From the IMG/VR virus record IMGVR_UViG_3300017773_000127, positions 1 to 25,235 of that record: a DNA stretch of 25,235 nucleotides; one strand, given 5' to 3'. The notes under the pieces are model-generated. The model had not been told where the DNA came from and did no database searches. It worked only from the letters and a program-made list of their open reading frames with translations. The translations under genes were made by a program, and so were the position numbers. Source of the stretch: a virus. Below, one piece after another: positions 1 to 3,745 of the stretch; the first letter of the stretch is position 1, and each line of letters starts with the position of its first letter.

Positions 1-314
1 CGGTCAGCGTACTGCGCTGATAAATTAGCTTCGTGTGCGCCTTGTAGATGTTCCAAGAAATCCGACCCGCCTTCGCGATCAAGGCAAAGCTGCAATACTT
101 GCTGCTGGGTGATACTGCTGTAATCGATAAATGAATCAGACAGAGTGTCAGTGTTCAGGTATGTCAGTATTTGACCTTCGCTGTTCACTGCGCGACGGAA
201 ATCGGCGTCAAAAAACTCTACCTGCCACAGCACTTTTTTGACTACGTTTTCGCGTCCGTCTTGTTCGGGTATCGTATATAACTCTAGTATTTTTGCTTCA
301 TACTCAATGTTCAT
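1..314 (-). CDS. Small phage protein beside the tail-fibre module (C-terminus cut by window edge)
   Basis: An open frame starts at the ATG at 314 and reads leftward for 104 codons without a stop, so the protein is incomplete here. The start is supported by a GAGGA ribosome binding site 8 nt upstream, and it overlaps the end of the preceding gene by 11 nt, which suggests coupled translation. The protein begins MNIEYEAKILELYTIPEQDG and continues with a Trp-rich beta-strand-like stretch (VVKKVLWQVEFFDADF). It then has SITQQQVLQL and an acidic/polar helix. This layout (a short N-terminal beta region, one W-x-V strand, a D-rich turn, then a helix that begins with T-x-x-Q-V) resembles small uncharacterised phage proteins encoded near tail fibres. 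I do not know its function. It may be a minor structural or assembly protein, but that rests only on context. Confidence 0.75.
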   Translation of the reverse strand, partial: MNIEYEAKILELYTIPEQDGRENVVKKVLWQVEFFDADFRRAVNSEGQILTYLNTDTLSDSFIDYSSITQQQVLQLCLDREGGSDFLEHLQGAHEANLSAQYAD

Positions 315-1020
315 TAGTTGTGTCCTCTAATAATGTTTTTGCTAACCCGACTCGTAACTTTGCAGCGCGGGTTAATGTTCTCTCTGCCAAGCTTTTAACA
401 GCGGGTAACTCGTCTGCAAAAGGCAACGCTTTCTCCAAAGCGTAGGCAAACATCTCGTTACCGTTGGCTGAACCTTTTTCAAACACATCCACGTAGTTAC
501 AAATAGAAGCGTTTTCGGCGAGCATTCCGTAATCCATCGCCAGCTTTCCTGACAAAACATTCGCGATGAGCGCATCGCTTTTATGGTTCATGTGTCTCGG
601 CATGCGAAGACGTTTTGCTGTCTGTAGCACCCCCACATCTGAAGCTGGTATGTCAGTCCACCGTGCTGGGTTAATAATGAACACGTTCAGGTCTAAGTGG
701 TTTCTACCAATCTTGCTGCCGATAAGCTCATAAGCCTGACTGTGTTTAGGGTGATCGCTAAATACCCCCGCACGGCTTAAACAAATGTCATACTCATCGA
801 GCAGCTCCCAAGACGGCATATCCCCATCTTGAACGTCCAAAATAACCCCGCTCTTCACGACTAACGCTGTCTTTGTAAGATTCTTCAGGGCTGTGGGTAT
901 AAACCCTCCAACGTAGGGCACCACCTTACAGTCCCAGTCAGGCATGTTCGTTTTTACAGAGTTAACTGTTAACGACGCCAGCCTGTTGCACTCGACTACT
1001 AAAACTTCTGGGCGCGACAT
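304..1020 (-). CDS. Putative GT-A-like glycosyltransferase, divergent (238 aa)
   Basis: The start is the ATG at 1020, not the TTG at 1026, because AGGAG lies 6 nt before the ATG and would be too close to the TTG. The protein opens with a beta strand (EVLVVEC) and then NRLASLTVNSVKTNMPDWDCKVV. That order, a strand followed by 'surname-like' SVKxxxPxW and a second strand, is typical of nucleotide-sugar transferases with a GT-A fold. Around residues 112 to 122 it has LDLNVFIINPARW, which resembles the N-x-G-V-x-x-x-N-x-x-x-W segment of GT8-like enzymes. No clean DxD metal motif is seen; the nearest candidate is LDVQDGD near residue 65. It overlaps the end of the upstream gene by 59 nt in another frame. 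With its neighbour it may decorate the Ser/Thr-rich fibre encoded just upstream. The glycosyltransferase call is a pattern-based inference and could be wrong. Confidence 0.4.
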   Translation of the reverse strand: MSRPEVLVVECNRLASLTVNSVKTNMPDWDCKVVPYVGGFIPTALKNLTKTALVVKSGVILDVQDGDMPSWELLDEYDICLSRAGVFSDHPKHSQAYELIGSKIGRNHLDLNVFIINPARWTDIPASDVGVLQTAKRLRMPRHMNHKSDALIANVLSGKLAMDYGMLAENASICNYVDVFEKGSANGNEMFAYALEKALPFADELPAVKSLAERTLTRAAKLRVGLAKTLLEDTTNEH

Positions 1021-1855
1021 GCTCAACTCCTATGTACTGATCAAAAAAACTAGTCACGTTATCCCGATGACGGTCGGCGCTTGATGGTATTAGCCCTGAA
1101 CTATCGCTACTTAAAAGCGCTTTCAAGCGGTCTGCTCGAAGAACACCTTGAGTTTCCAACGCTCTGTAAATCGCCGTGTACGTACACCACTCATCGCGCT
1201 TGCCGAATAAGTAAACTTTCTTACCTTTTGCAAGGGCTACAATGCCCATCTCACTGTTTTCACAGCAGCCTACAATCGCCGCTCGATCTAGTATTGCTTT
1301 GCCGCTCTTCTTCTTTTCAATAATGTTCTCTGCGCCGTACTTATGTACTAAATGTTGGTACACAGTTGGCGACGTAAGCGGGTGGCACTTCAGCTTTGCG
1401 CCCTGGGCCATTGCTCTTTCGACTTTAGGCCAGTCCGTAACCTTGTCTAATATGTTCGTACCTGGGAGGAAGATAACGAAGTCATGTTGCTCTCCAGTCG
1501 ATCGTAGTCGGTACTTGTCTTCATTGTTCTCAGCAATATCATTGAACCAGCGCTCACCAACCGCGTTAATTCTGCAGCTTGCAGCTTGCAGCATCGTTTG
1601 AGAGGCGTGTTCTATACTCGCTGCTCTTAGGTAAATGAACTTCGTCAGCAAGTCCGTATAAACGTAGCCATGTATCTTGCCGTCGCTGAAGTTGTACCAA
1701 AGGTCATATTCGATCTTTGTACCTCTCCACGTCTCAGGTAACAGCTTCTTGATCGCGATTAACTGGTCGCTCTTTCTGTTCCTCAGTACATTCCCGCTTT
1801 TGAAAAAGTGCGCAGCGGGGTTACCAAACTCGTCATTCTCAGCTAGTTTCTTCAA
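962..1855 (-). CDS. Putative GT-B-like/capsule-polysaccharide-type glycosyltransferase (297 aa)
   Basis: This frame probably starts at a TTG at 1855, because an in-frame stop lies just upstream and no ATG occurs near the N-terminus. There is no clear ribosome binding site, so translation may depend on coupling to the 44-residue gene it overlaps by 17 nt. The C-terminal half is the informative part. It has an 'FVIFLPG' strand, a KCHPLTS segment, then about 30 residues later IVGCCENSEMGIVALAKGKKVYLFG. A Ser-Glu-x-Gly followed by an A-L-x-x-GK-x-V-Y-L-F-G run is how GT-B proteins of the capsule polysaccharide (KpsC/KpsS-like) type end their nucleotide-sugar binding domain. The N-terminal half (WYNFSDGKIHGYVYTDLL) is not recognised. 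A role in making or attaching a sugar on a virion protein is an inference from this motif and the next gene. It could also be an unrelated Rossmann-like protein. Confidence 0.45.
   Translation of the reverse strand: MKKLAENDEFGNPAAHFFKSGNVLRNRKSDQLIAIKKLLPETWRGTKIEYDLWYNFSDGKIHGYVYTDLLTKFIYLRAASIEHASQTMLQAASCRINAVGERWFNDIAENNEDKYRLRSTGEQHDFVIFLPGTNILDKVTDWPKVERAMAQGAKLKCHPLTSPTVYQHLVHKYGAENIIEKKKSGKAILDRAAIVGCCENSEMGIVALAKGKKVYLFGKRDEWCTYTAIYRALETQGVLRADRLKALLSSDSSGLIPSSADRHRDNVTSFFDQYIGVEHVAPRSFSSRVQQAGVVNS
1021..1031 (-). promoter_or_regulatory. Ribosome binding site that fixes the start of the 238-aa gene
   Basis: On the minus strand AGGAG (1031 to 1027) is followed by the 6-nt spacer TTGAGC and then ATG at 1020. 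The spacing is optimal for the ATG and too short for the in-frame TTG inside the spacer, so it settles the start two codons downstream of the longest open frame. Confidence 0.75.
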
Positions 1856-1973
1856 GTCTTTTTACCAATTGAGCCACCTGCTCTTCGAGTTCAGAAATAC
1901 GGTCTTCTGTTTCTGAAAAGTGCTCCATAATTACGTCAAGCGTGTTTTCTAATTTTCGAGCTATATCATCCAT
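1839..1973 (-). CDS. Tiny coiled-coil protein (44 aa)
   Basis: A short gene not easily picked up by length filters. Its ATG at 1973 overlaps the TAA stop of the Ser/Thr-rich fibre gene (TAATG), the same coupling junction seen at other gene borders in this window, and it ends in TGA at 1841 to 1839. The product starts MDDIARKLENTLDVIMEHF and is followed by a heptad-like run with Ile, Leu, Val, Leu at a/d positions (ISELEEQVAQLVKRLEE), so it should form a coiled coil over nearly its full length. It has no signal peptide or membrane segment. The size and composition would fit a small oligomerising chaperone or a trimerisation piece for the fibre upstream, but that is conjecture. The main support for it being real is the gap-free position, the coupled start, and the regular heptads. 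Confidence 0.6.
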   Translation of the reverse strand: MDDIARKLENTLDVIMEHFSETEDRISELEEQVAQLVKRLEETS

Positions 1974-3148
1974 TAGTCTTCCGTCCACTGTGAGCCATCC
2001 CAATAACGGCGATTGTTAGCGCCTTGACTGCCTACTTCGGTCTCATTACCCGTTGCTGTAAGTCTTTCGTAAACCACCGTGGACGTATCCCGATTCGTGT
2101 TAGTCGATCTACTTGTCCCTGTGTCATGCGCGGTAGTGTTGTTAGTGTCAAAAGTCGTAGTGAACGACGTAGTAGTTGATCTGCTTGTTCCAGTAGCCCG
2201 CGACGTATTAAACGACGTAGTAGTTGATCTGCTGGTGCCAGTGGCGCGAGACGTAGTAACCGACGTAGTAGTTGATCTGTTGGTGCTAGTGGCGCGAGAC
2301 GTGGAGAGGTACGTGGTGGTTGCTTTGCTCGTGCCGCGAGAGGTTCCGCGAGAGGTTCCACGGGTGGTTCCGCGAGAGGTTCCATAAGTAGTGGTGCGAG
2401 AAGTGCTGCGGGTTCTGGCGAGCCTCTTAATTCGATACTGTGTGGTCGTGACGCTATAACCGTCAACAATAGAACTGTGTGTAGCGCCCCGCTGGTATGT
2501 AAAACCGCCTGTCGTATAAGTGGTGCTGGCTGCTAAAGATGTGGAATTTAATTGACTACCGTACCACCAGAATTGGGTGCCAGAGCCAGCGATATTGCCG
2601 CCAGATATACGTGTTACACGGTAACTTGTGCTGTACGCTGGGTAGCTTTGTGCGTGTGTCTGTGTGTTAAACGACGTGCTACGCGACGTGTTAAACGACG
2701 TGACGATAGCCGTATTGAACGATGTAGTGTACGACGTATTGAACGACGTAGTAGTTGATCTGCTTGTACCGTAAGTGGTCGTTGTGTTGAACGACGTGGC
2801 GGTTGCTTTGGCGGTGCCAAAAGAAGTCGTGGTGTTAAAGGCTGTAGTCGTAGCGTTGCTTGTACCAAAAGTAGTGGTCGTATTGAACGCTGTAGTCGTA
2901 GCGTTGCTTGTACCAATGCTCGTACTATAAGTCGTTGTATAGCTGGTCGAAGTGTCAAACGCTGTAACTGTACCAAAAATGGTACTGGTGTCTCTGGTTG
3001 TGTCGTAAACAGCATTCCAGACAGTGCCTAACGTACCGTTGTTGTTGGCAACCACATAGTTAACGCCATAAAGCGTCCCCTGGTCACCTTTAGCGAAGAT
3101 TTGGGTAGGCTCTTTAAGAGTACCACTGTCGTTAACTTTTATTGACAT
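1973..3148 (-). CDS. Ser/Thr-rich repeat fibre-like protein (391 aa)
   Basis: Likely virion appendage protein. Residues 1 to 47 form a conserved-looking head (FAKGDQGTLYGVNYVVANNNG). Two low-complexity blocks follow, residues about 48 to 165 and 246 to 355, built from octads and double octads such as FNTSRATG/TSRSTTTS, with an aromatic residue every 8 (or 10 plus 6) positions. Between them lies a non-repetitive domain (residues about 166 to 245) rich in Gly, Tyr and Trp (GSGTQFWWYGSQL). The C-terminus ends with NNRRYWDGSQWTED. About half of the residues are Ser or Thr, and block 2 also has many Arg. Repeats of this kind suit a long beta-rich fibre shaft. It follows two fibre genes and precedes two glycosyltransferase-like genes, so its Ser/Thr could be glycosylated. 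The exact role (host binding, decoration or adhesion to glycans) is unknown. Confidence 0.8.
   Translation of the reverse strand: MSIKVNDSGTLKEPTQIFAKGDQGTLYGVNYVVANNNGTLGTVWNAVYDTTRDTSTIFGTVTAFDTSTSYTTTYSTSIGTSNATTTAFNTTTTFGTSNATTTAFNTTTSFGTAKATATSFNTTTTYGTSRSTTTSFNTSYTTSFNTAIVTSFNTSRSTSFNTQTHAQSYPAYSTSYRVTRISGGNIAGSGTQFWWYGSQLNSTSLAASTTYTTGGFTYQRGATHSSIVDGYSVTTTQYRIKRLARTRSTSRTTTYGTSRGTTRGTSRGTSRGTSKATTTYLSTSRATSTNRSTTTSVTTSRATGTSRSTTTSFNTSRATGTSRSTTTSFTTTFDTNNTTAHDTGTSRSTNTNRDTSTVVYERLTATGNETEVGSQGANNRRYWDGSQWTED
2084..2413 (-). repeat. 48-bp in-frame tandem repeats, block 2 of the fibre gene
   Basis: On the plus strand the start GTAGTAGTTGATCTG recurs at 2169, 2217 and 2265, exactly 48 bp apart, with the intervening sequence mostly conserved (CCAGTGGCGCGAGACGTAG-like). 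This equals 16 codons per unit (SFNTSRATGTSRSTTT). A shorter 12-bp RGTS unit is iterated nearby at about 2330 to 2390. The array lies inside the coding frame and keeps it open. Confidence 0.85.
2654..3007 (-). repeat. 24/48-bp in-frame repeats, block 1 of the fibre gene
   Basis: The 28-bp string beginning GCTGTAGTCGTAGCGTTGCT occurs at 2841 and again at 2889 on the plus strand, a 48-bp period. Toward 2660 to 2760 the unit shortens to about 24 bp (AACGACGT... and GAACGACGT...). It encodes 16- and 8-residue Ser/Thr repeats of the fibre protein. Confidence 0.8.
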
Positions 3149-3157
3149 GGCTGGCCC

Positions 3158-3745
3158 TTAGCTCACTACATACCAGACGTGTCCGTTTGCAAAGCCACTG
3201 GCACTGGTAGGAGCCGTAGTGACAACAGATTGTGTACCCGCATTATTGAGCTTCGTGTGATCTGCATCAGTAAACACATTTGAGTCGCTTGCGGCCTCAA
3301 CAGCCGCGCGTATCTCGGCATTTGTCTGGTCAGCAGTGGCACTAGCCTCTATACCATCGAGCTTGGTATGGTCCGCATCGGTGAAGTTGTTCTGCGTTAG
3401 ACCGCCATCGCCCACTGTGTAGGTAGTGTCTGTATCAGCTTGTGTTGCAACATCGTTTAAACCTGCAGCGGTAAGCCTAAGCTCACACTTATCTCCTGAC
3501 GAAAAGGTACGGGCAGTAGAGTTATCTTGGGCTCTAACGACCGTCAACGTGTTACTGCTACGAGCCGTACATTTAACAATCTCTTTAAGCGTCGGGTCGC
3601 TGTCTACTTCAAGAGTCAGATAAAGGTAGTCGCTACCAGAAAGCGCTGGAAACGCTGACCCATCTGCCACCGTAATAGATGTGGCAGAGTCGCTAACACC
3701 CGCCGACAGCGTTGTAGTCGCATTGTTGTGAAATAAAACTGCCAT
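3158..3745 (-). CDS. Tail fibre/appendage protein (195 aa)
   Basis: A typical marine-phage tail-fibre module. Residues 1 to 95 are a compact beta domain with the recurring family pattern: NNATTTL, ITVADGSAFP, YLYLTLE, EIVKCTARSSNTLTVVRAQ and ELRLTAAGL. Residues 120 to 165 carry the FTDADHTKL motif twice, around an ATADQTNAEIRAAVEAASDSN segment known from many phage fibres, where it repeats as a stiff linker. The last 25 residues (ASGFANGHVWYVVS) look like a short tip. The start ATG at 3745 has AGAGG 6 nt upstream. It lies 9 nt upstream of the Ser/Thr-rich fibre gene and 12 nt after the previous fibre gene, so the three are cotranscribed. It most likely attaches to the tail or baseplate and positions other fibre parts. 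The family is recognised, but the receptor is not. Confidence 0.85.
   Translation of the reverse strand: MAVLFHNNATTTLSAGVSDSATSITVADGSAFPALSGSDYLYLTLEVDSDPTLKEIVKCTARSSNTLTVVRAQDNSTARTFSSGDKCELRLTAAGLNDVATQADTDTTYTVGDGGLTQNNFTDADHTKLDGIEASATADQTNAEIRAAVEAASDSNVFTDADHTKLNNAGTQSVVTTAPTSASGFANGHVWYVVS

Follow-up and report, generated by a model that had tools for sequence, protein, structure and literature searches.

Does a phage put sugars on its own tail fibre? The question is raised by four genes of a marine phage in the viral record IMGVR_UViG_3300017773_000127, of which positions 1 to 25,235 (the whole stretch analysed, hereafter the window) were examined. At the end of its structural gene set, a gene for a Ser/Thr-rich repeat protein (ST) is followed by genes for a small coiled-coil protein (CC) and for two proteins that resemble glycosyltransferases (GTB and GTA). 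A first-pass annotation, made from the letters and open reading frames (ORFs) of the window, had described this quartet as coupled genes and proposed a fibre glycosylation system. Its gene coordinates and its description of the quartet hold:

1973..3148, minus strand: ST, Ser/Thr-rich repeat fibre of 391 amino acids (aa), proposed acceptor (composition, repeats)
1839..1973, minus strand: CC, coiled-coil protein, 44 aa from ATG (ORF and sequence)
962..1855, minus strand: GTB, KpsC-like GT-B protein, 297 aa, TTG start, proposed catalytic glycosyltransferase (AlphaFold2, Foldseek, phrog_26179)
304..1026, minus strand: GTA, GT-A-like protein without DXD, 240 aa from TTG or 238 aa from ATG at 1020 (AlphaFold2, Foldseek)

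Each gene overlaps its neighbour. The ST stop and the CC start read TAATG, the CC/GTB and GTB/GTA reading frames overlap, and the stop codon of GTA shares bases with the ATG of the gene that follows downstream. The ratio of nonsynonymous to synonymous substitution rates (dN/dS), taken against three relatives, was around 0.1 for GTB and for GTA, and both genes are under strong purifying selection. Our best reading, which we consider reasonably probable, is that the quartet forms a mobile module: GTB, with the help of GTA or of a replacement, glycosylates ST to yield a sugar-bearing fibre.

Linkage of ST with GTB and GTA

The association was evaluated on loci fetched by the GTB profile alone, using the best 80 of 199 relatives and counting as S/T-rich any ORF with at least 35% Ser plus Thr (S+T; the median found was 50%). 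Such an ORF stood immediately upstream of the GTB module in 70 of the 78 testable loci versus 6 of 404 background ORFs, and GTA was downstream of GTB in 78/78; as the 80 contigs include many near-identical copies, these counts are not independent and the effective number is smaller. An earlier set contained 38 clearly distinct GTBs. The CC position was filled by a small ORF in every locus with an adjacent ST gene (70/70). In the converse test, GTB or GTA was present in each of the 59 loci fetched with ST that extended far enough downstream; the two ST loci listed without either gene stop no more than about 40 bp from the ST or CC gene. Three separate retrievals, with GTB, GTA or ST as query, recovered the quartet alike. 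The arrangement of ST with GTB far exceeds chance.

Eight testable loci departed from this order. The ST gene was found one or a few genes further upstream in four of them. The other four (L162, L165, L171 and L172) carry CC-GTB-GTA beside a gene resembling a small terminase, away from the fibre; the longest of these contigs encodes an 815-aa ST fibre at another place, and three fragments of 5-20 kb make up the rest. In L163, L164, L181 and L188, one or more genes of unknown function are inserted between ST and CC-GTB.

The pairing is kept where both partners have diverged, namely in KVP40 (gp254-256), QD01, D479/D484/F86, Lullwater, Quill and BL198. The GTB relatives of named phages are 26-34% identical to the GTB of the window and lie behind S/T-rich genes with unrelated N-termini, the S/T content of which reaches 49% in KVP40 gp254, 46% in QD01_260, 40% in Lullwater gp41, 39% in BL198 gp46 and 37% in Quill gp41. 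What distant ST proteins have in common is S/T composition and, in the two measured (KVP40 and Quill), repeats of period 4; this suggests recognition of the repeats rather than of one specific fold. In each of three Vibrio phages, an open frame of 181-202 aa and 40-42% S/T lies just upstream of CC and GTB; the deposited annotation misses this frame or gives tiny ORFs only:

D484, L195:3141-3692: ST-like open frame
F86, L196:3062-3667: ST-like open frame
D479, L107:6909-7451: ST-like open frame

Scans of viral contigs with the KVP40 and Cr30 GTBs returned only those same phages. The second gene of the module is less constant. No similarity was detectable between GTA and the second genes of KVP40/D479 or of DLP_6/L097, and in the Caulobacter podoviruses, which keep GTB, no GTA-like gene was seen next to it. 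GTB with an S/T-repeat gene is thus the usual core of the module, Stenotrophomonas phage DLP_6 being the counter-example. Had the two glycosyltransferase-like genes been kept without an S/T-rich gene nearby, the first-pass proposal would have lost its ground; instead, phages with GTB almost always carry an S/T-rich gene, DLP_6 excepted. The recurrence of the pairing in dozens of very different phages suggests that these phages put sugars on their own fibres.

The settings of the module comprise the podovirus-like genome of the window, a SAR92 prophage with a tape-measure-like gene, and Straboviridae. The prophage copy, in SAR92 clade bacterium H921 (L193, JAOALD010000003.1), is a complete ST-CC-GTB-GTA cassette with an ST of 988 aa, and sits in a prophage-like region with capsid-like and tape-measure-like genes on a 520-kb bacterial contig. 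The SAR92 clade is the likely host group for one branch of the cassette.

Predicted folds of GTB and GTA

GTB belongs to phrog_26179 (E 6e-43), a family of unknown function. Its AlphaFold2 model (predicted local distance difference test, pLDDT, 84.7; predicted template modelling score, pTM, 0.83) was compared with the PDB by Foldseek, and the top seven matches were all transferases of beta-linked 3-deoxy-D-manno-octulosonic acid (beta-Kdo) of capsule or lipopolysaccharide (LPS), with E 3e-6 to 4e-4 and prob 1.00. They are led by the KpsC structures 6mgd (E 3e-6), 8fux, 8fuw and 6mgc, together with the K13 Kdo transferase KrKA. Independently of the model, a profile built from nine diverse GTBs matched the two KpsC modules with 94% probability (E 1.3e-7) over a span that includes KY, HP and the Ser-Glu/GK region, whereas a profile from close GTB homologues alone gave just 20%. 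Pfam Capsule_synth (PF05159; gathering cut-off 20 bits) matched the Quill GTB (19.8 bits) and 5 of 34 close homologues at the borderline and did not match the GTB of the window; a GT52 match in the KVP40 GTB was sub-threshold. Sequence searches of solved structures with the GTB and GTA profiles gave no match for either. The capsule-type assignment of the first-pass annotation is borne out by these structural and profile matches, and GTB is very likely a glycosyltransferase. The predicted relics of its active site, and one further conserved segment (NSEMG), are as follows:

1511..1516, minus strand: Lys114-Tyr115, aligned with the KY pair of KpsC (Lys133-Tyr134)
1379..1384, minus strand: HP motif, His158-Pro159, invariant in 34/34 sequences and in 9/9 diverse members
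1244..1258, minus strand: NSEMG segment, residues 200-204, invariant except for one Q at 202 (sequence A1)

The polar residues invariant in 34/34 are H16, K19, E49, D51, Y66, D68, K114, Y115, N134, K156, H158, N200 and S201. KpsC employs the catalytic Asp160 of its invariant QXXXD motif, and Glu66, Tyr93, His94, Lys133, Tyr134 and Asp196 stand around the sugar (PMC10148158). Since the HP motif also occurs in some enzymes acting with CMP-sialic acid (CMP, cytidine monophosphate; PMC10148158), a CMP-type sugar donor for GTB is a reasonable guess, and no more.

The AlphaFold2 model of GTA (pLDDT 92.5, pTM 0.88) gave weak matches in the PDB, to LARGE1, STIV A197 and nucleotidyl-sugar enzymes, the best at only E 1.7e-3. 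Among viral models, 22 matched at E <= 0.001, and those with informative names are mostly glycosyltransferases. The best of them, A0A142EZR9 (250 aa, TM 0.69), agrees in length with the third gene of DLP_6 and may be its product. GTA residues invariant in 33/33 include D89, D110, N117, R142, N145, H146 and D149. An assignment to GT8 from the resemblance of FIINPxxW to MLINLxxW failed on profile comparison. We propose that GTA is a second enzyme or an acceptor-binding partner; it might work without metal, or have no catalytic role at all. Of the earlier GT-A-like call, the resemblance to GT-A proteins stands, while the matches in the PDB are weak and the DXD is lost. The models predict a KpsC-like fold for GTB and suggest, less firmly, a GT-A-like fold for GTA.

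The likeness of GTB to capsule enzymes also fits a role outside the virion: the two enzymes might alter the host surface polysaccharide during infection or lysogeny, for receptor alteration or superinfection exclusion, and a common link to the receptor would explain their place next to the fibre. Serotype-altering phage glycosyltransferases are known in lysogeny (reviewed in PMC12619734), and one copy of the module is in a prophage. However, no transmembrane segment was found in GTB or GTA, their genes overlap the fibre genes of a structural operon, and the partner is specifically an S/T-repeat gene even among unrelated phages. We regard this role as improbable.

ST as the proposed acceptor

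ST consists of two repeat blocks between conserved ends:

3017..3148, minus strand: conserved N-terminal segment (MSIKVNDSGTLKEP...NYVVANNNGTLGTVW), also found at the beginning of the ST genes listed for related loci
2621..3016, minus strand: repeat block 1, residues 45-176, 52% S+T (composition)
2054..2413, minus strand: repeat block 2, residues 246-365, 57% S+T (composition)
1985..2005, minus strand: C-terminal YWDGSQW motif, a WDGxxW-type ending being present in 70/70 ST genes

The protein had been described as about half Ser/Thr in octad repeats; over its whole length the S+T share is 43%, lower than in the blocks, the strongest periods are 4 and 16 residues, the repeat is tetrad-based, and 8 is a multiple. 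No Pfam or PHROG family was found for ST, save a weak C-terminal match to DUF2510 (E 0.002, below cut-off), the second half of which the YWDGSQW end resembles. Neither a hydrophobic or signal segment nor LPXTG was found in its sequence. A mucin-like nature was ruled out, Pro being below 1% in window-type ST genes. In related loci the length of ST runs from about 240 to more than 1500 aa with both ends conserved; the repeat number therefore appears to change readily.

On its minus strand the 25-kb record has a set of structural genes like that of a podovirus: portal, major head protein, a virion protein with an SLT transglycosylase, an M15 peptidase and a 2349-aa protein, together with several fibre genes. 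The quartet is flanked by two further genes:

3158..3745, minus strand: upstream tail-fibre gene ending ...GHVWYVVS (PHROG tail fibre matches)
3..314, minus strand: DUF7936-like gene directly downstream of GTA, cut by the window end (PF25590, E 4.5e-9; synteny)

The DUF7936-like gene is common to close relatives only. ST and the upstream fibre gene are probably structural partners. Of the fibre genes adjoining ST on that side, 55/55 have a WY[VI] end although their remaining parts are unrelated, and this looks like a conserved docking end.

Three points lead us to take ST as the acceptor: it remains the partner even where fold, neighbours and second gene change; GTB and GTA are soluble and encoded in the same overlapping gene string; and distant ST proteins share a tetrad-like S/T composition. 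That ST is the substrate of GTB seems likely to us. In the mechanism we propose, ST would follow the upstream fibre ending in WYVV as a further fibre segment, probably joined to it. CC, possibly a fibre assembly factor, would probably aid its trimerisation or folding. GTB would be a soluble GT-B glycosyltransferase related to KpsC and to GT52-type CMP-sugar enzymes, taking the sugar from a nucleotide sugar of the host and attaching it to Ser/Thr in the ST repeats, in the cytoplasm and before virion assembly; GTA, with its GT-A-like fold, would add a second sugar or, its DXD being lost, bind the acceptor. The bond to ST would be O-linked, and the fibre sugar might change receptor binding, protect the fibre or mask it.

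Several observations weigh against this reading. The TM-scores of GTB to KpsC are low (0.33-0.43), and the match therefore rests on local structure and the order of elements. The QXXXD nucleophile motif is absent from GTB: the aligned positions 133 and 137 are T/S/A and N/D/E/Q/K, the site reads G[TSA]N without a conserved Asp, and Leu or Ile follows HP where KpsC has Asp196. For this reason KpsC-type chemistry was set aside, the mechanism and donor of KpsC are not transferable, and GTB, KpsC-like in its predicted fold, is outside the retaining beta-Kdo enzymes by their defining motif. In GTA the DXD position, as assigned by the strand order of the model, is x[SG]G in 33/33, and profile comparison with the GT8 enzymes WaaO/WaaJ gave no similarity. 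Among those window proteins that were scanned, none was recognised as an enzyme of nucleotide-sugar synthesis. The ST-like gene of Cr30 (gp254) is short (116 aa, 27% S+T, Tyr-rich) and makes a weaker link. Finally, it is from genomic context only that we infer ST to be a virion protein, and sugar transfer by GTB and GTA, the donor and even catalysis included, is likewise inferred.

The loss of QXXXD and DXD is also what one would expect if GTB and GTA were former glycosyltransferases, now dedicated chaperones or assembly factors for the repeat fibre, with no sugar added. This is the strongest rival. A fibre chaperone would be just as strictly linked to a fibre gene and a small coiled-coil gene, and low-complexity repeat fibres may need help in folding. 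Yet HP, KY, K156 and N134, near the predicted nucleotide site, are invariant down to around 21% identity, which is beyond the needs of a scaffold, and the Caulobacter podoviruses do without an adjacent GTA-like gene. We therefore judge the chaperone role unlikely and prefer glycosylation of ST.

DLP_6, a clear exception to the pairing, also counts against ST as the acceptor: its CC, GTB and third gene come after a long immunoglobulin (Ig)-like fibre with only 19-25% S/T. On its linear record (L103, L108), a long unannotated open frame reaches both ends, and its end precedes CC and GTB. Since DLP_6 keeps CC and GTB beside a fibre without S/T repeats, the glycosylated substrate could be another virion protein, such as this Ig-like fibre or the upstream WYVV fibre, the ending of which is conserved too, and ST would be only the physical carrier. 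Against this, the S/T-rich gene is the constant partner in KVP40 and the Caulobacter phages, where the other neighbours differ, and we give the idea little credence.

Glycosylation of ST by GTB is supported by both the linkage and the predicted folds, with active sites that differ from those of KpsC and GT8 enzymes. If it is true, a 'hypothetical' family in model phages (KVP40, Caulobacter Lullwater) would be a protein-glycosylation system on tail fibres, the structures that decide host range. Virion glycosylation would extend from mycobacteriophages to phages of Proteobacteria, a fold known to date from capsule and LPS enzymes would be found to serve protein glycosylation, and the effect of sugars on a phage fibre would become testable in laboratory phages. 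More tentatively, such a system may be widespread and move horizontally among tailed phages that differ in morphotype: a two-protein transferase, not related to GtfA/GtfB, would attach a capsule-type (perhaps CMP-activated acidic) sugar by O-linkage to a dedicated Thr/Ser-repeat fibre. These phages would gain a sugar-coated fibre, and the KpsC-like fold a new protein-glycosylating branch.

Comparison with known systems

The retaining beta-Kdo enzymes KpsC (GT107) and WbbB (GT99) are like GTB in its predicted whole-length GT-B fold and have in common with it the HP motif, the Lys-Tyr pair and a Gly-Lys segment. They differ in having the QXXXD nucleophile and the Asp after HP, and they act on capsule lipid, whereas the partner of GTB is a phage fibre. 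Phage tail-fibre cassettes with assembly chaperones consist of a mobile fibre and a small helper gene, as here; the helper set of the present module adds glycosyltransferase-fold proteins.

In the Ser-rich-repeat protein systems of Gram-positive bacteria, an S/T-rich repeat surface protein is likewise encoded beside a pair of glycosyltransferase-fold proteins, a likeness in which the linkage is observed and the glycosyltransferase nature on the phage side is predicted from folds. Their priming pair is GtfA, which is catalytic, and GtfB, the acceptor chaperone (PMC6973325), where the phage has KpsC-like and GT-A-like proteins; no Pfam match to the GtfA/GtfB domain (DUF1975) was found in GTB or GTA. 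The bacterial systems use accessory Sec, a long signal peptide and an LPXTG anchor, whereas ST carries neither signal segment nor anchor and a scan of window proteins found no Sec gene. The two systems are alike in logic and not by homology.

The first-pass annotation knew of no such phage system. This stands for the ST/GTB pair, of which we found no description in the open-licence literature (a limited scope, and hence weak evidence of absence), and does not stand for virion glycosylation at large. We treat the mycobacteriophage and the Ser-rich-repeat adhesin systems as parallels to the module. According to PMC12363180, which cites Freeman 2023, the enzymes of mycobacteriophages Che8, Corndog and Myrna glycosylate capsid and tail tube. 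The action of a phage glycosyltransferase on its own virion, shown there, is proposed here for a dedicated repeat fibre that has an enzyme of its own encoded next to it.

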